Of a stretch of DNA of 64,000 nucleotides, positions 48,771-54,577 are shown piece after piece. Below the pieces are notes generated by a model. The model was not told where the DNA came from and did not search any database. It saw only the letters and a list, made by a program, of their open reading frames with translations. The stretch spans positions 682,001-746,000 of the forward strand of contig NZ_FQYR01000003.1 of NCBI RefSeq assembly GCF_900141815.1. Reading direction: 5' to 3'. The stretch comes from Rubritalea squalenifaciens DSM 18772. GTDB lineage: Bacteria > Verrucomicrobiota > Verrucomicrobiia > Verrucomicrobiales > Akkermansiaceae. The translations under genes and the position numbers were made by a program. The stretch's first letter is position 1. Every line of letters starts with the position of its first letter.

Positions 48771-49265
48771 ATGGCCGTCATGTCAATAGATCCATTACTT
48801 CAACTTCTGTGCCAAAATGCGCGCTACACTCATCAAGAACTTGCCGAGCTCCTCAAGTTGGACGCGGCGGCGGTGACTGAGCGTATCCAGGCGTGGGAGA
48901 AAGATGGAACCATTCTTGGCTACAATGCAGTGGTGAATCCTGAGTTGGCAGGCAGCACAGACGTGGCAGCATTCATTGAGGTGAAGCTAACTCCAGAGAG
49001 AGGTGGTGGCTTTGACCGCCTAGCAATGCGAATCGCACGTTTCGATCAGGTCGACGCCTGTTACCTGGCCAGTGGCGGCTACGATCTGATGGTGGTCGTC
49101 GAGGGCTCTGATTTGAGAGAGGTGGCTAGATTTGTCAGTGAGAAGTTGAGCACCATCGACGGTGTGCTTTCAACGGCCACGCATTTCAGACTCAAAACCT
49201 ACAAGGAGAACGGCTTTGTCTTTGAGATGGAAGAACCGGAAGGCAGGCTAGCTGTCGCACCATAA
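48771..49265 (+). CDS. Lrp/AsnC-family transcriptional regulator
   Basis: 164 residues. N-terminal helix-turn-helix (HQELAELLKLDAAAVTERIQAWEKDGTILGYNAVVNPEL), then the RAM effector domain (VAAFIEVKLTPERGGGFDRLAMRIARFDQVDACYLASGGYDLMVVVEG). It probably senses an amino acid. The aminotransferase gene begins 19 bases after it and is the likely regulated partner. The second in-frame ATG at 48780 is an alternative start. Confidence 0.93.
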   Translation: MAVMSIDPLLQLLCQNARYTHQELAELLKLDAAAVTERIQAWEKDGTILGYNAVVNPELAGSTDVAAFIEVKLTPERGGGFDRLAMRIARFDQVDACYLASGGYDLMVVVEGSDLREVARFVSEKLSTIDGVLSTATHFRLKTYKENGFVFEMEEPEGRLAVAP

Positions 49266-49284: not shown

Positions 49285-50454
49285 ATGGACTACACTAGTA
49301 AAATTGCACGGCAGGTTGCCAGTGTGCCACGCTCAGGTATTCGCGATTTCTTTGAGTTGGTACAGGGAAGGGAAGACGTGATCTCTCTTGGAGTCGGGGA
49401 GCCAGACTTCAGTGCTCCATGGCATATCCGTGAAGCGGCCATCTACTCATTGGAAAAAGGGCAGACCAGCTACACTTCCAACCTTGGTCTCCTGCAGTTA
49501 CGCAAACACATCTCAACTTATGTGGGGGAGTTCTTCAATGTGGACTATTCCCCGGCCGATGAGGTTCTCGTTACCGTGGGTGTCTCTGAGGCGATTGATC
49601 TTGCGTTGAGAGCACTACTCAATCCAGGTGATGAGGTTGTTTACCATGAGCCTTGCTACGTTTCTTACAGCCCGAGTATCGCCATGGCACATGGCAAAGC
49701 AGTTCCAGTAGCTACTCACAAGTCTGACGGTTTCTCGCTCAAAGCTAGTGCACTGGAGAATGTTCTCACAGACAAGACCAGGGTGGTAATGCTGAATTTC
49801 CCAACCAATCCTACGGGCGCCATCGCCCCTAAAGAGGATCTAGAGGAAATTGCTGCGCTTTGTATCAAGCATGACCTCATCGTCCTAACGGATGAAATTT
49901 ATAGTGAATTGCAGTATGACTCGGATGAACATGTTTCTATAGCTTCATTGCCAGGCATGAAAGAACGCTGCATTCTGCTGCATGGTTTCTCCAAGGCATT
50001 TGCTATGACAGGCTTCCGTCTAGGCTACGCATGTGCGCCTGCGCCAATCATCGAGGCCATGATGAAAATTCATCAGTACTCTATGCTGTGTGCTCCTATC
50101 ACAAGTCAGGCTGCAGCGATTGAAGCGCTTGAAAATGGTGCGCCAGCGGTGCAGCGCATGAAAGAGAGTTATCATCAGCGTAGAGATTACCTGGTGAAGA
50201 GACTCAATGACATGGGGCTTGAGTGCCATACTCCTGGTGGAGCATTTTATGTGTTTCCTGATATCAGGAAGTTTGGTTTGAGCAGCAAGGATTTCGCTAT
50301 GCGCTTGCTTGAAGAGCAAAATGTCGCTGCAGTGCCGGGAGATGCATTCGGCCAGAGTGGTGAAGGCTTCTTACGTTGTTGTTATGCCACCGGAATGGAT
50401 GACCTCAAGGAAGCTATGGACAGAATGGAGATCTTTGTTAGTACTCTTCACTAA
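49285..50454 (+). CDS. PLP-dependent aminotransferase, class I/II
   Basis: 389-residue fold-type I aminotransferase. ISLGVGEPDFSAPWHIREAA is the substrate loop, FPTNPTGA contains the conserved Asn, DEIYSEL has the pyridine-binding Asp, and the PLP lysine is Lys237 in GFSKAFAMTGFRLGY. The C-terminal substrate Arg lies in GFLRCCYA. It resembles aspartate/aromatic or MalY/PatA-type enzymes; the substrate is not fixed by sequence. Directly downstream of the Lrp-like regulator and 3 bases before the CPBP gene. Confidence 0.94.
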   Translation: MDYTSKIARQVASVPRSGIRDFFELVQGREDVISLGVGEPDFSAPWHIREAAIYSLEKGQTSYTSNLGLLQLRKHISTYVGEFFNVDYSPADEVLVTVGVSEAIDLALRALLNPGDEVVYHEPCYVSYSPSIAMAHGKAVPVATHKSDGFSLKASALENVLTDKTRVVMLNFPTNPTGAIAPKEDLEEIAALCIKHDLIVLTDEIYSELQYDSDEHVSIASLPGMKERCILLHGFSKAFAMTGFRLGYACAPAPIIEAMMKIHQYSMLCAPITSQAAAIEALENGAPAVQRMKESYHQRRDYLVKRLNDMGLECHTPGGAFYVFPDIRKFGLSSKDFAMRLLEEQNVAAVPGDAFGQSGEGFLRCCYATGMDDLKEAMDRMEIFVSTLH

Positions 50455-50457
50455 TTC

Positions 50458-51228
50458 ATGACGAGTAACCCCCTAACTGAACTGAGAGAGAACAAGACCT
50501 ACGCTCACGTAGTTCCTTTCGCTGCTTTTTTCCTCCTGAACATGGCGATGTCTCTCGGGGATCAAATCAAGTGGGAGCACCCTGACGCTCCCTGGTGGAG
50601 GCATTGGCCGGAGCAATGGATGTACCCTATACAAACCATTTTGGTGCTGGGTACTCTGGTGTTCTACTGGAAGCACTATGATCTAAAGTGGGACTCGCGA
50701 GTTGTTTTCGGTGGGCTTATGGGTGTTGTCGGGATTGGCTTTTGGCTTCTACCGACAACGCTTTATGACTGGATGGGCTACACTGAGGAGAGTGTTGGGT
50801 GGCTTGAGTATCTCGGGGTCATGCCAAGACGAGAGGGGTTTGATCCTATGGTGCTGAAGGATGAGTTCGGCATAGGGGGTGTATTCGTGTCTGGCTTTCT
50901 TCGCTTTTTCCGCGCAGTCATCATTGTGTCTCTTGTAGAGGAGATTTTATGGAGGGGTTTCCTGATGCGTTTCATCCTCAATCCTGATGGTGATTACTGG
51001 AAGGTTCCCTTTGGCAAGCCTGATTGGCGTAGCTATCTGATCGTCACAGCAGCCTTTATTTCCATTCACCAACCTGTTGATTTTCTGGGAGCGTTCATCT
51101 ATGGATCGCTCACCTATTGGGTGGCAGTGAAAACGAAAAGTTTGGCTGCCTGTATCACTATGCATGCTGTAGCGAACCTCTTAATGGGGACGTATGCTCT
51201 GTATTACGGAAAATTTGGACTCTGGTAA
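50458..51228 (+). CDS. CPBP-family (CAAX protease-like) membrane protease
   Basis: 256-residue membrane protein with about seven helices. The CPBP (Abi) motifs are VEEILWRG with Glu161-Glu162, the helix with ISIHQP, and MHAVANLLMG, which provide the glutamate and histidine ligands. The subgroup resembles the CAAX prenyl protease-related proteins seen near exosortase systems; no exosortase is visible here. Substrate unknown. Tightly packed between the aminotransferase and the degenerate NadE gene. Confidence 0.88.
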   Translation: MTSNPLTELRENKTYAHVVPFAAFFLLNMAMSLGDQIKWEHPDAPWWRHWPEQWMYPIQTILVLGTLVFYWKHYDLKWDSRVVFGGLMGVVGIGFWLLPTTLYDWMGYTEESVGWLEYLGVMPRREGFDPMVLKDEFGIGGVFVSGFLRFFRAVIIVSLVEEILWRGFLMRFILNPDGDYWKVPFGKPDWRSYLIVTAAFISIHQPVDFLGAFIYGSLTYWVAVKTKSLAACITMHAVANLLMGTYALYYGKFGLW

Positions 51229-51231
51229 GAC

Positions 51232-52635
51232 ATGCGTATTGGGCTGGCTCAGATCAACTCGATGGTTGGTGATTTTCCCGCCAATGCTAAGAGAATCATG
51301 CAGGCCTATAGGTCCTGTCTAGATCAGGATGCCGAGTTAGTAGTTACACCAGCATATGCGTTGTGCGGATACCCGCTTTTAGGGTTGGTTCATCGTGAAC
51401 GCTTTGTCGAGCAGTGTCTCCAGGCACTCGACTATCTGGGGGATGAGGTTAAGGATGTGCCTTTATTGGTCGGGCACATATTAATAGAGAATGATGAGCC
51501 GCAGAAAGCTGCCACTCTATTACAGCTTGGAAAAGACCCTGTCTGCATTTCGTTCCCGTATGCTGCAGCTGACCAGACGAACAAGCAGATTGAGCTAAAA
51601 GGGTGTAAACTGGATCTCAGGTTGTCAGACTCAGGGTGTTTGGATGTAGCGTCTGATCTCTTCATCCATATGGATGCTGAAACTTTCACACATCCTGAAA
51701 GGGCGACCGATCGCTCTCCCGGACTGCCAGGTGTTTACTGCAATGCAGTTGGCAGCAACGATGGCTGGGTCTTTCACGGGCAATCTACAGCGTATGGCCT
51801 ATCAGGAGTGGTGTTACGCAGTTTGGTTGCATTCGGTGAGGAATGCTTAGTGGTCGACGTTGGTGGTGATGTAGTTTCTCAAGTTACTTCGGAAGAGATG
51901 CATTCGACGGAACTGCTTTATCGGGCACTCTGTTGTGGAGTAGAAGATTTTGTGCGTAAAGGTGGCTATAATGGTGTTTGCATCGCCTGGGATGGAACTC
52001 TGGCGGCACATCTCCTTACTAGAATTGCCATCGACTCCATGGGGGAAGAACAGATTGCAGTGATTGATTTCACTGAAGATCCTAGTTCAAACCATGATTG
52101 GGGGGATGTCGAAATTCTGGACACTAGTTTAAGTGCATTATCAAAACCGCTAACAGACGAGTTTCCTGTGGCGGCAGGTGTGGAGCACAGGCTGCGTAAA
52201 GTGGCTTTAGATCACGCTGCTGAGTCCAGAGGGTATCTCTATCTTAGCGCTGGGACCTCCACCTCATTCCTGATGGGTGACTCCGAATATATAGACTATG
52301 ATTTTGGAGGGCTTGCGGTCTTTGCAGATTTGCCAACGAGTAGTCTCCTAAAATTAGGGAGGTATTTGAAGCTATCAGAAGATGTCATTGCTTCGGCAGG
52401 AGAGGGGGATGCTGTTGCTATCCAAGAGAAAGTGCTTAAGGCGATCGCCAATGGGAGAGGAGCTCTCCAGATCATTGAATCTACTAATTTGCCTGAGCAT
52501 TTTGTCAGAAGCCTTATCAGAAAATACAATTTAAATCATACCAGATCACGATACAGGCCTGTAAAAATACACCTAACCAAAACAGATAGAGACCTTAATG
52601 GTGATTTCCCTGTTATTCAGACCTTTGTAGACTAA
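51232..52635 (+). CDS. Degenerate glutamine-dependent NAD synthetase homologue (probable pseudoenzyme)
   Basis: 467 residues that align along their whole length with two-domain NadE (nitrilase plus synthetase; about 540 aa): MRIGLAQINSMVGDFPANAK, CGYPLLGLV, GGYNGVCIAWDGTLAAHLL and the C-terminal KYNLNHTRSRYRPVKI. The key residues are gone. The nitrilase Glu is Ala41 (TPAYALCGYP for PExxLTGYP). The nucleophile Cys in the usual C-E-D motif is missing (LRLSDSG). The P-loop SGGxDS is replaced by AWDGTLAA (252-259), and TGNKSE by AGTSTS. The frame is intact and normally placed in an operon, so it looks maintained for a non-catalytic role. Confidence 0.75.
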   Translation: MRIGLAQINSMVGDFPANAKRIMQAYRSCLDQDAELVVTPAYALCGYPLLGLVHRERFVEQCLQALDYLGDEVKDVPLLVGHILIENDEPQKAATLLQLGKDPVCISFPYAAADQTNKQIELKGCKLDLRLSDSGCLDVASDLFIHMDAETFTHPERATDRSPGLPGVYCNAVGSNDGWVFHGQSTAYGLSGVVLRSLVAFGEECLVVDVGGDVVSQVTSEEMHSTELLYRALCCGVEDFVRKGGYNGVCIAWDGTLAAHLLTRIAIDSMGEEQIAVIDFTEDPSSNHDWGDVEILDTSLSALSKPLTDEFPVAAGVEHRLRKVALDHAAESRGYLYLSAGTSTSFLMGDSEYIDYDFGGLAVFADLPTSSLLKLGRYLKLSEDVIASAGEGDAVAIQEKVLKAIANGRGALQIIESTNLPEHFVRSLIRKYNLNHTRSRYRPVKIHLTKTDRDLNGDFPVIQTFVD

Positions 52636-52661
52636 CCGGGTAGAATTGTGCATTATCTCAT

Positions 52662-52672: not shown

Positions 52673-54577
52673 ATGAGAGCTGAGGAAGCATCTAGCACGA
52701 GAACCCAAAAGAAGGGTATGCCATGGATCAAGATAGCCATCTTGGTCACAGTCTTGATGATTGCCGGGGCGGTGGCTGTTCAATACCTCAAGTGGCAGGA
52801 AACGGCTGCTTCAGAAAAAAGGCTGGCGGAACAAAGTGCGGTCCAGAGGAAGCAAAACTCCCGCAAGGCCGTTGAAGATGCACAGAACTTCTTAAATCAG
52901 GGGGACCTTGCAAAAGCTGAGAGATCTATTCTCTTAGCTGAGGGCTTGGATACTGATGGTGAGCTGAGCGGGGATATTTTTCAGCTCAAAGCCAAGTACA
53001 AAATATTGAAGGCTAAGGCGGATGAGGAGCTTGAGGCATTGAAGAAGAGGGAGGCTAAAGCTGATGAAATTATTAGTGAGATCAATAATCTGTTAGCGGG
53101 GGCTGAGATTGAAGCGATTTTATCTCAGCTTAAAAACAAGCTTTCTAGTCTCGACCAAATCGAGAAGGAAGGAGTCAGCGATGCCTGTAGGAAAAGGATT
53201 GGGCAAATCAACTCTCAAATCGACACCTCAAGACGAGAGGCAAATATCAAGAGGCTTCAAAATTTGCTAGCGGAAGTAGTTTCATTGCAGACAGAGGAAG
53301 AGGTCGCGGGAGCACTTAAAGCTATCCAAGCCCGAGCAGCCCGTGACCCCATTCCGGAAGAATTGCAGGAGAAAATTGCAAATGCCTCCAAGGAGCTTCA
53401 GCAAAGACTTCAGACGATTCAGGTGGTGAAAACTTTTCAGGTAAACTTGTCGAAGGAGAACTGGATTGACGCTGAGCAGTCCATCACCGCCATGGAGTCG
53501 CTTGGTTTGGGTGACGCGCAAATACAGCAATATCGATTAAGGTTTCAAGAGCTTCGCGCTCACGCGGAAAAAAGAGACCGACGCGTGCAAATGTTGATGA
53601 ACGAGTTCAAGAGTATGGACACTTCTCGTTTTAATGCTGCCGCATTTTCAAAACTTGACCAGATTCTTGAGATAGCGCCTGAGCACGCGGAAGCATTGGC
53701 ACTAAAGAAACGCCTGTCTACCACCTTGGACCAGATCCGCGTTCCTGGAGATGTAGCTGACATTGATGAGGCCGTGAAATGGGTTAATAGCGGGGGGAGA
53801 ATACTTCTTGGAGAAGGTTTGTTCTATGCGGAGATTGAATTGGAGAAGAGCCTGAAGATAGAAGGCCAGGGGGTGAATAAAACATTTATCGAGTCCAAGT
53901 GCGCGCACGGCCCTGCTATTTATATTAAGCAGAAGGAAGGCAAGGTGAACATAAAAGGGCTTACGGTAAAGGGAATAGGCTATATCGACGACCAGCATCG
54001 TCATGCGCTAATCCTCGTCGCATCCAATGCGTATTTTGAGAATTGCGAGTTCGTCAAAGCACCAGGGCATGGAGTAGCTGTTATTGCTGGCAAGCTAGAG
54101 ATGAAGGGGTGCAAAGTATCACAGAGCGGCTGGGATGGAGTCACCATTAAAGGGGAGGACAGTCAAGCCGCGCTGACTGACTGCCTATTTGATGAAAATG
54201 CGGAGCATGGAGTGGACTTTTGGGATGGAGCTTCAGGTACGGTGTTTCGGAGTAAAATTGCGTCTTCCTCAGGAAGTGGCCTGGTAGTCACTGGGGGGAG
54301 TCGAGTCACTCTAGCCCAATGCACAGTAGAGAAGAATAGAGAGACGGGCGTGTATATTGCCGACGGCTCTCTGGTGAAAATGGATAAGGTCCTTTCACAG
54401 GGGAACCTGCTCTCAGGTGTTGCCATCCAAGGCGATCTTACTTCTGTTGAAATGAGTATCGTGGCTTCTGCGGGGAATGACCAGGCAGGCTACTTTATCC
54501 AGGGCAACCCCACGATTCATGGGCTAAACCGTGCTACAGCAGAGAATAATAAACAGGGTAAAATTGTAAGGAAATAG
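52673..54577 (+). CDS. Membrane-anchored coiled-coil protein with C-terminal right-handed beta-helix
   Basis: 634 residues. A basic N-terminus is followed by a membrane helix at about 19-38 (WIKIAILVTVLMIAGAVAVQ). A long alpha-helical, probably coiled-coil region (about 45-350, many Glu/Lys/Gln) comes next. The C-terminal part (about 355-634) is a parallel beta-helix of the pectate-lyase/NosD style, shown by repeating blocks such as IYIKQKEGKVNIKGLTVKGIG, GVAVIAGKLEMKGCKVSQSG and GVYIADGSLVKMDKVLSQGN. No catalytic residues were identified; binding of polysaccharide or protein at the cell surface is a guess. It starts 37 bases after the NadE-like gene. Confidence 0.85.
   Translation: MRAEEASSTRTQKKGMPWIKIAILVTVLMIAGAVAVQYLKWQETAASEKRLAEQSAVQRKQNSRKAVEDAQNFLNQGDLAKAERSILLAEGLDTDGELSGDIFQLKAKYKILKAKADEELEALKKREAKADEIISEINNLLAGAEIEAILSQLKNKLSSLDQIEKEGVSDACRKRIGQINSQIDTSRREANIKRLQNLLAEVVSLQTEEEVAGALKAIQARAARDPIPEELQEKIANASKELQQRLQTIQVVKTFQVNLSKENWIDAEQSITAMESLGLGDAQIQQYRLRFQELRAHAEKRDRRVQMLMNEFKSMDTSRFNAAAFSKLDQILEIAPEHAEALALKKRLSTTLDQIRVPGDVADIDEAVKWVNSGGRILLGEGLFYAEIELEKSLKIEGQGVNKTFIESKCAHGPAIYIKQKEGKVNIKGLTVKGIGYIDDQHRHALILVASNAYFENCEFVKAPGHGVAVIAGKLEMKGCKVSQSGWDGVTIKGEDSQAALTDCLFDENAEHGVDFWDGASGTVFRSKIASSSGSGLVVTGGSRVTLAQCTVEKNRETGVYIADGSLVKMDKVLSQGNLLSGVAIQGDLTSVEMSIVASAGNDQAGYFIQGNPTIHGLNRATAENNKQGKIVRK

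Follow-up and report, generated by a model that had tools for sequence, protein, structure and literature searches.

Why would a bacterium keep a gene for an NAD synthetase homologue in which both active sites are gone? NadE catalyses the final step in making NAD and tends to be regarded only as an enzyme. The question is raised by a gene in the window, the whole 64,000-nucleotide stretch of Rubritalea squalenifaciens DSM 18772 DNA analysed here. The initial annotation had described it as an intact frame in a tight operon with a CPBP protease and an aminotransferase (AT), and both statements are borne out: the gene is a single open frame running from ATG to TAA with no internal stop, its codon-position G+C (0.58/0.40/0.44) is coding-like, and the gaps to its upstream neighbours are short (Table 1). 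The CPBP protein passes TIGR03008, a family named for PEP-CTERM systems, with 96.3 bits against a cut-off of 81.05, and the longest frame of the downstream beta-helix gene opens at a TTG at 52646. Between 48500 and 55000, promoter-like sites are rarer than in shuffled sequences and terminator-like sites are about equally frequent.

Table 1. The nadE2 locus and its features, in window coordinates
Feature	Position	Strand	Basis
Lrp/AsnC-type regulator, opens the gene string; 19-nt gap to aminotransferase	48771..49265	+	
Class I/II aminotransferase, same gene string; 3 nt to CPBP	49285..50454	+	
CPBP intramembrane protease (TIGR03008); 3-nt gap to the dead NadE2	50458..51228	+	
Inactivated NadE2-type NAD synthetase homologue, 467 aa	51232..52635	+	ORF, families, relatives, motif columns, predicted fold
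Residues 1-85, conserved start of nitrilase-like domain	51232..51486	+	Identity, pN/pS, invariant columns
Codon 41, Ala in the catalytic nitrilase Glu column	51352..51354	+	Alignment
Codon 132, Ser in the nucleophilic Cys column	51625..51627	+	Alignment
Codons 253-261, WDGTLAAHL replacing the loop LSGGIDSAL	51988..52014	+	Alignment
Beta-helix protein, downstream neighbour of nadE2 in several relatives	52673..54577	+	

The protein is recognizably an NAD synthetase homologue. It matches the NAD+ synthase profile NF010588 (PRK13981) with an E value of 1.9e-37 and 128.9 bits, short of the cut-off of 479; its sole Pfam match is the start of CN_hydrolase (32 bits), and Pfam returned no match to NAD_synthase (PF02540) in it. 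The closest solved structures are NAD synthetases of the short kind (4f4h, 3n05 and 5kha). An AlphaFold2 model, for which the window protein was combined with 41 Akkermansia-type homologues, reached a pLDDT of 79.9 and a pTM of 0.83, and it superposes on 3n05_A with a Z score of 30.8 and an rmsd of 3.0 over 447 aligned residues. The two-domain NAD synthetase fold is thus predicted to be kept along the full length, in agreement with the earlier proposal of a fold preserved from end to end.

The catalytic residues have not been kept. The motif columns were read against 14 homologues from the family and order, all with Glu, Lys, Cys and SGGxDS intact. In the window protein, PEL of the Glu column reads PAY, most of the lysine segment KTLLPTYDVFDE is deleted, and ICEDIW around the Cys reads LSDSGC, with another Cys four residues on, at position 136. 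SGGIDS of the synthetase domain, which we take to be its ATP loop, reads DGTLAA, so that Gly255 is the sole survivor and five of the six SGGxDS positions are changed, and TTGNKSE in the GNKSE region reads SAGTSTS. Glu, Lys and Cys form the glutaminase triad of NAD synthetase, as given in PMC6946656. The initial claim of an NAD-synthetase homologue without either active site is therefore upheld. PMC7196632 places the Burkholderia enzyme in a dimeric, type 2 group, NadE2. Compared with glutamine-dependent NadE2 (NadE2-Gln; 4f4h from Burkholderia thailandensis, with 3n05 and 5kha by similarity), the window protein is homologous over its full length and has the same modelled two-domain fold, but it is about 80 residues shorter, stays below the curated cut-off and lacks the triad, the SGGxDS loop and the NAD_synthase match. 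That the protein works as an NAD synthetase despite its unusual residues is extremely improbable, because the predicted fold is set against triad columns devoid of Glu, Lys and Cys, a loop changed almost throughout, the loss of GNKSE and a motif-intact NadE elsewhere in the same genome.

This second NadE answers the question, left by the initial annotation, of whether a separate canonical nadE exists. The window genome has three PF02540 matches, one of which is a 681-codon frame that retains PEL, K, CED and SGGADS and, read from its probable start codon, encodes 649 aa; the other two are presumably MnmA and GuaA. The long NadE passes TIGR00552 (85.7 against 63.65 bits). Its scores for NF010588 (273 bits) and NF002730 (214 bits) are both below the cut-offs, which leaves length as the sole ground for the label ‘type 1’. 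In length it resembles the octameric type 1 enzyme NadE1-Gln (M. tuberculosis 3dla and 6ofc; PMC6946656), which has the same domain order as the window protein and is a longer protein, separate from the window NadE2. A heterodimer of the dead protein with an active NadE2 was rejected for this genome, since the PF02540 matches read as the long NadE, MnmA and GuaA; with no other NadE2 found in this genome, a partner cannot be a second NadE2 subunit.

Comparison with relatives (genomes are given G numbers and loci L numbers) places the window gene in an old nadE2 slot. The string Lrp-AT-CPBP-NadE is present in all four congeners with a NadE2 (G003, G005, G007 and G010) and in 7 of 15 other family or order loci (G016, G018, G022, G026, G056, G040 and G043), and the intact short NadE of relatives occupies the same slot. 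In the other 8 of the 19 non-Akkermansia loci the retrieved sequence did not contain the full string, and G135 and G166 have their aminotransferase and CPBP genes elsewhere than nadE2; CPBP adjoins nadE2 in 11 of these 19 loci. Between G005 and the window, the aminotransferase and UvrD are each 80% identical, Lrp 73% and CPBP 60%, and NadE only 29%. In a separate comparison, the window protein was 30-32% identical to the NadE2 of all four congeners, with 31-32% for G005 and G007. In G005 the CPBP gene (G005:C1:3827388-3828151; L111) is read as two fragments, the matched region being interrupted by a TAA, from either a sequencing error or decay.

Within the genus, the loss of NadE2 is graded. 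G007 has NadE2 alone, which retains Glu, Lys and Cys and has the loop LTGGVDSAL. G003 (L113), G005 (L111) and G010 (L112) each have a long NadE elsewhere in the genome: G003 keeps the triad and has lost the loop Asp (LSGGIGSSL), and in G005 and G010 the Cys is Gly and the loop reads LNGNIESSL and MNGSIESSL, respectively. The NF010588 score declines stepwise from 687 bits in G022 through 607 in G007, 527 in G003, 453 in G005 and 428 in G010 to 129 in the window, with G022, G007 and G003 above the cut-off of 479. Six further genomes (G002, G004, G006, G008, G009 and G011; drafts 83-98% complete) have both a long NadE and the Lrp-AT-CPBP string, but neither protein nor profile search turned up a NadE2 in them; the contig of G006 ends 1.4 kb past CPBP. 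The genus therefore counts one genome with NadE2 alone, four (the window included) with a long NadE and a damaged NadE2, and six with the long NadE only, and G001 (58% complete), in which neither NadE was seen, is uninformative. In a tree of Lrp, AT and CPBP combined, the window is the sister of the six genomes without NadE2 (93/87), and G024, which belongs to another genus and has a dead copy, groups with G022, whose copy is intact (95/98). The window end branch is 2.5 changes per column for NadE2 versus 0.23 for Lrp+AT+CPBP. The initial annotation had held that orthologues with restored motifs would count against a pseudoenzyme; this applies in half, because positional orthologues in the genus and family are intact or less damaged, which indicates that the loss is lineage-specific.

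The presence pattern in the genus suggests that NadE2 was displaced and then inactivated. We consider it likely, with a probability of about 0.72, that the window gene is a nadE2 that was displaced by the long NadE, is catalytically dead and has been kept as a folded non-catalytic protein. The ancestor would have had a chromosomal nadE2 encoding a short, glutamine-dependent NAD synthetase. Judging by the presence patterns, it would then have gained a second NadE, the long one of 649 aa in the window genome, to which NAD synthesis passed, and this arrival probably preceded the inactivation of NadE2. Freed from catalysis, NadE2 lost both the Glu, Lys and Cys of the triad and the SGGxDS loop, as the alignment shows, and it was retained as a protein with a predicted intact fold, with selection on the frame and above all on residues 1-85, as comparison with its relatives shows. 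A second NadE was rejected as a sufficient cause of loss, since G017 has a long NadE and a motif-intact NadE2, the frame of which ends about two residues early. In two loci of genus g9, L137 (G031) and L138 (G019), the beta-helix gene directly follows CPBP and nadE2 is gone; g9 genomes with a match have the long NadE only.

A comparable loss was found in Akkermansia, as which we took genus g3, all 20 of its extracted sequences being 100% identical to named loci. A profile scan of named genomes returned 42 loci, 40 titled Akkermansia or Akkermansiaceae, A. glycaniphila Pyt included, and two ‘uncultured bacterium’. Of these, 41 are full length with the stop in place; L188, cut by a contig end, was left out of the ORF set, and 41 distinct full-length ORFs remain. 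None of the 41 keeps the Glu or the Lys, one (G103) has a Cys in the Cys column and SGGxDS is present in one (A. glycaniphila). Glu, Lys, Cys and SGGxDS are all missing from 15 further homologues, taken from g3 genomes that include A. muciniphila-like ones. Over all 56, Glu and Lys are kept in 0 and SGGxDS is lost in 55. Like the window protein, these homologues lack Glu and Lys and come with a long NadE in most genomes (a frame in 37 of the 39 g3 genomes searched, the exceptions being G082, 79% complete, and G128; all motifs are kept in that of G062). Unlike it, they have motifs of their own and a different genome location. The profile matched nothing in 5 of the 20 g3 genomes searched (G013, G125, G127, G128 and G130).

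The g3 genomes also hold some exceptional arrangements. In G128 (97% complete) NadE of neither type was found, through a missing contig or true absence, and only weak PF02540 matches occur there, in frames of 517, 321 and 625 codons. G074, G084, G086 and G090 (L066-L069) have, beside the long NadE and the dead homologue, an extra short frame of 259-261 codons that matches PF02540 well and probably encodes an ammonia-dependent NadE. In A. glycaniphila Pyt (L165:6001-7587) the glutaminase is dead and the synthetase loop intact (PF02540, 238.5 bits); the model has a pLDDT of 89.4, with 3n05 as its best structural match. A long NadE was not found in A. glycaniphila, where this homologue, possibly ammonia-dependent, is the only clear NAD synthetase. 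Akkermansia seems to have followed a parallel course, probably with the glutaminase half lost first.

An alternative history is that the window, G024 and Akkermansia inherited one and the same ancient dead protein through transfer or hidden duplication. The full tree groups the three with support of 98/97, and in this full set the AU test gives a borderline result (p-AU 0.0498) for grouping the window with its four congeners; the full tree and this AU test used 11 of the 20 Akkermansia rows. The branches are long, however, and the program warns of false joins. Once Akkermansia, G024 and G015 are removed from the tree, the window groups with its four congeners (87/99), although there a grouping with G005 alone is disfavoured (p-AU 0.037). 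Glu41 to Ala and the loop Ser to Asp are common to many dead copies, but shared derived letters do not discriminate: the window shares 15 of 58 with the Akkermansia consensus, no larger a share than among other damaged rows, such as the 10 of 26 that G005 has in common with it. The window gene, moreover, sits in a vertical slot, and the order of loss differs, G003 having lost the synthetase loop only and A. glycaniphila the glutaminase only. Together with the slot and the species tree, this differing order points to separate origins; the trees do not settle the matter. We therefore regard a single dead family as unlikely, and the dead NadE2 of Akkermansia is probably of separate origin from that of the window.

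Is the dead gene under selection, or is it a relic that became useless when the long NadE arrived, stays open by chance or recent release, and is heading for deletion? We mutated the G005 or G007 gene at random, with substitutions only, to at most 70% identity, and 0 of 120 simulated frames remained stop-free (about 3% at 85% identity). The window gene is far below 70% identity to its congeners, and its frame could not have survived without selection. Regional identity was measured against 13 intact homologues, the dead G024 copy and the intact but divergent G015 copy being left out; these 13 rows also served in the counts of shared derived letters and invariant columns. Residues 1-85 of the window protein are 54% identical to these homologues, versus 63% among the 13 themselves; for residues 1-30 the values are 62% versus 60%, and for residues 86-467 they are 24% versus 64%, a contrast that the initial annotation had not noticed. 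Between the window and G005, pN/pS is 0.25/0.79 in residues 1-85 and 0.56/0.81 in the remainder. Synonymous sites are saturated in both regions, and the N-terminal contrast therefore lies at the protein level; recent gene conversion as its source was rejected, pS there being 0.79. Neither the relatives' genomes nor the named genomes yielded a close orthologue of the dead form, so selection is deduced from frame survival and the regional contrast.

Purifying selection was measured directly on damaged homologues only, namely those of G005 and G010 in the window genus and those of Akkermansia. Between G005 and G010, pN is 0.13 in residues 1-85 and 0.26 in the rest, with saturated pS of 0.90 and 0.82. 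In Akkermansia, all 183 pairs with dS of 0.02-1.5 have omega (Nei-Gojobori) below 1, with a median of 0.39 and a maximum of 0.64; the five lowest among the 40 closest pairs listed are 0.08-0.14, and the 25 closest pairs listed for the A. muciniphila-like group span 0.20-0.56. In the Akkermansia homologues, too, residues 1-85 are better kept than 86-467. In the window protein and the 41 Akkermansia-type rows together, 16 of 24 invariant columns fall within residues 1-85 (hypergeometric p 9e-8, a statistic that ignores relatedness); in the 13 intact enzymes this region is the less invariant one, with 22 of 85 columns versus 169 of 451 elsewhere. The dead NadE2 of G024 is best kept at its C terminus (47% in 426-467, versus 34% in 1-85).

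The gene's absence from all six sister genomes indicates that it is dispensable there, and this absence, the two g9 loci and the weak constraint on residues 86-467 are what a relic would lead one to expect. With the simulated frames, the constraint on residues 1-85 and that on the damaged homologues of G005, G010 and Akkermansia against it, we judge the relic reading quite improbable. An unbroken frame, with pN well below pS in residues 1-85, is also not that of a pseudogene. By sequence, the window protein is well supported as a pseudoenzyme: it is homologous to an enzyme family and lacks the catalytic residues, while its gene is intact and, from frame survival and regional constraint (with omega from relatives only), under selection. 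The pseudoenzyme proposed initially is thereby supported, with the motif-intact long NadE as a further point in its favour.

The changes could alternatively reflect new chemistry rather than loss, in a reshaped synthetase pocket that binds or converts another ligand. Many Akkermansia rows do share new motifs at the former loop and GNKSE regions (LDxPxSxL and SPLxRRxIMLGxFxLYGESCG), and the predicted folds are intact. These motifs are, however, absent from the window protein, with its DGTLAA and SAGTSTS, and from the A. muciniphila-like group, in which the loop region reads LLENSASLL and similar, and the conserved part of the window protein is residues 1-85 and not the pockets. A new enzyme is accordingly very doubtful.

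If the window protein is indeed a displaced NadE2 kept as a non-catalytic protein, it would most likely act by protein binding through its conserved N-terminal alpha/beta segment, residues 1-85. The regulatory or scaffold role suggested in the initial annotation is a guess, and no partner for the protein was found. Pseudoenzymes that regulate or scaffold a relative include HisZ, with HisG, and pseudo-DHOase, with ATCase. They share with the window protein a catalytic fold without catalytic residues; their partners, however, are known, and the window genome has no intact NadE2 as a relative. In other bacteria, NadE2 is bound by PII proteins, according to PMC7196632. A PII protein is present in the window genome and in seven other non-Akkermansia genomes searched, and was found in none of the six Akkermansia-genus genomes searched. 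PII was therefore rejected as a shared partner; in the window genome alone it might be one. Tentatively, the retirement of NadE2 into a non-catalytic protein under selection may be recurrent in this verrucomicrobial family, in the window genus, in G024 and in Akkermansia with its A. muciniphila group, and the N-terminal segment may have an older second function, perhaps protein contact, that persists after another NadE has arrived and NadE2 no longer makes NAD.

No earlier report of a dead NadE was found among the titles and opening lines of abstracts in the literature searched. The series described here runs, in one bacterial family, from intact NadE2 through the loss of one site and of both to absence, and in the window genus it is tied to a second NadE; it therefore bears on how an essential enzyme is displaced and what survives of it. 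Dead copies may be misnamed as NAD synthetase in annotations. Should the part that survives turn out to be functional, a second role may always have belonged to NadE2, and this role would be approachable in Akkermansia, since a dead copy is present in the A. muciniphila-like genomes examined.
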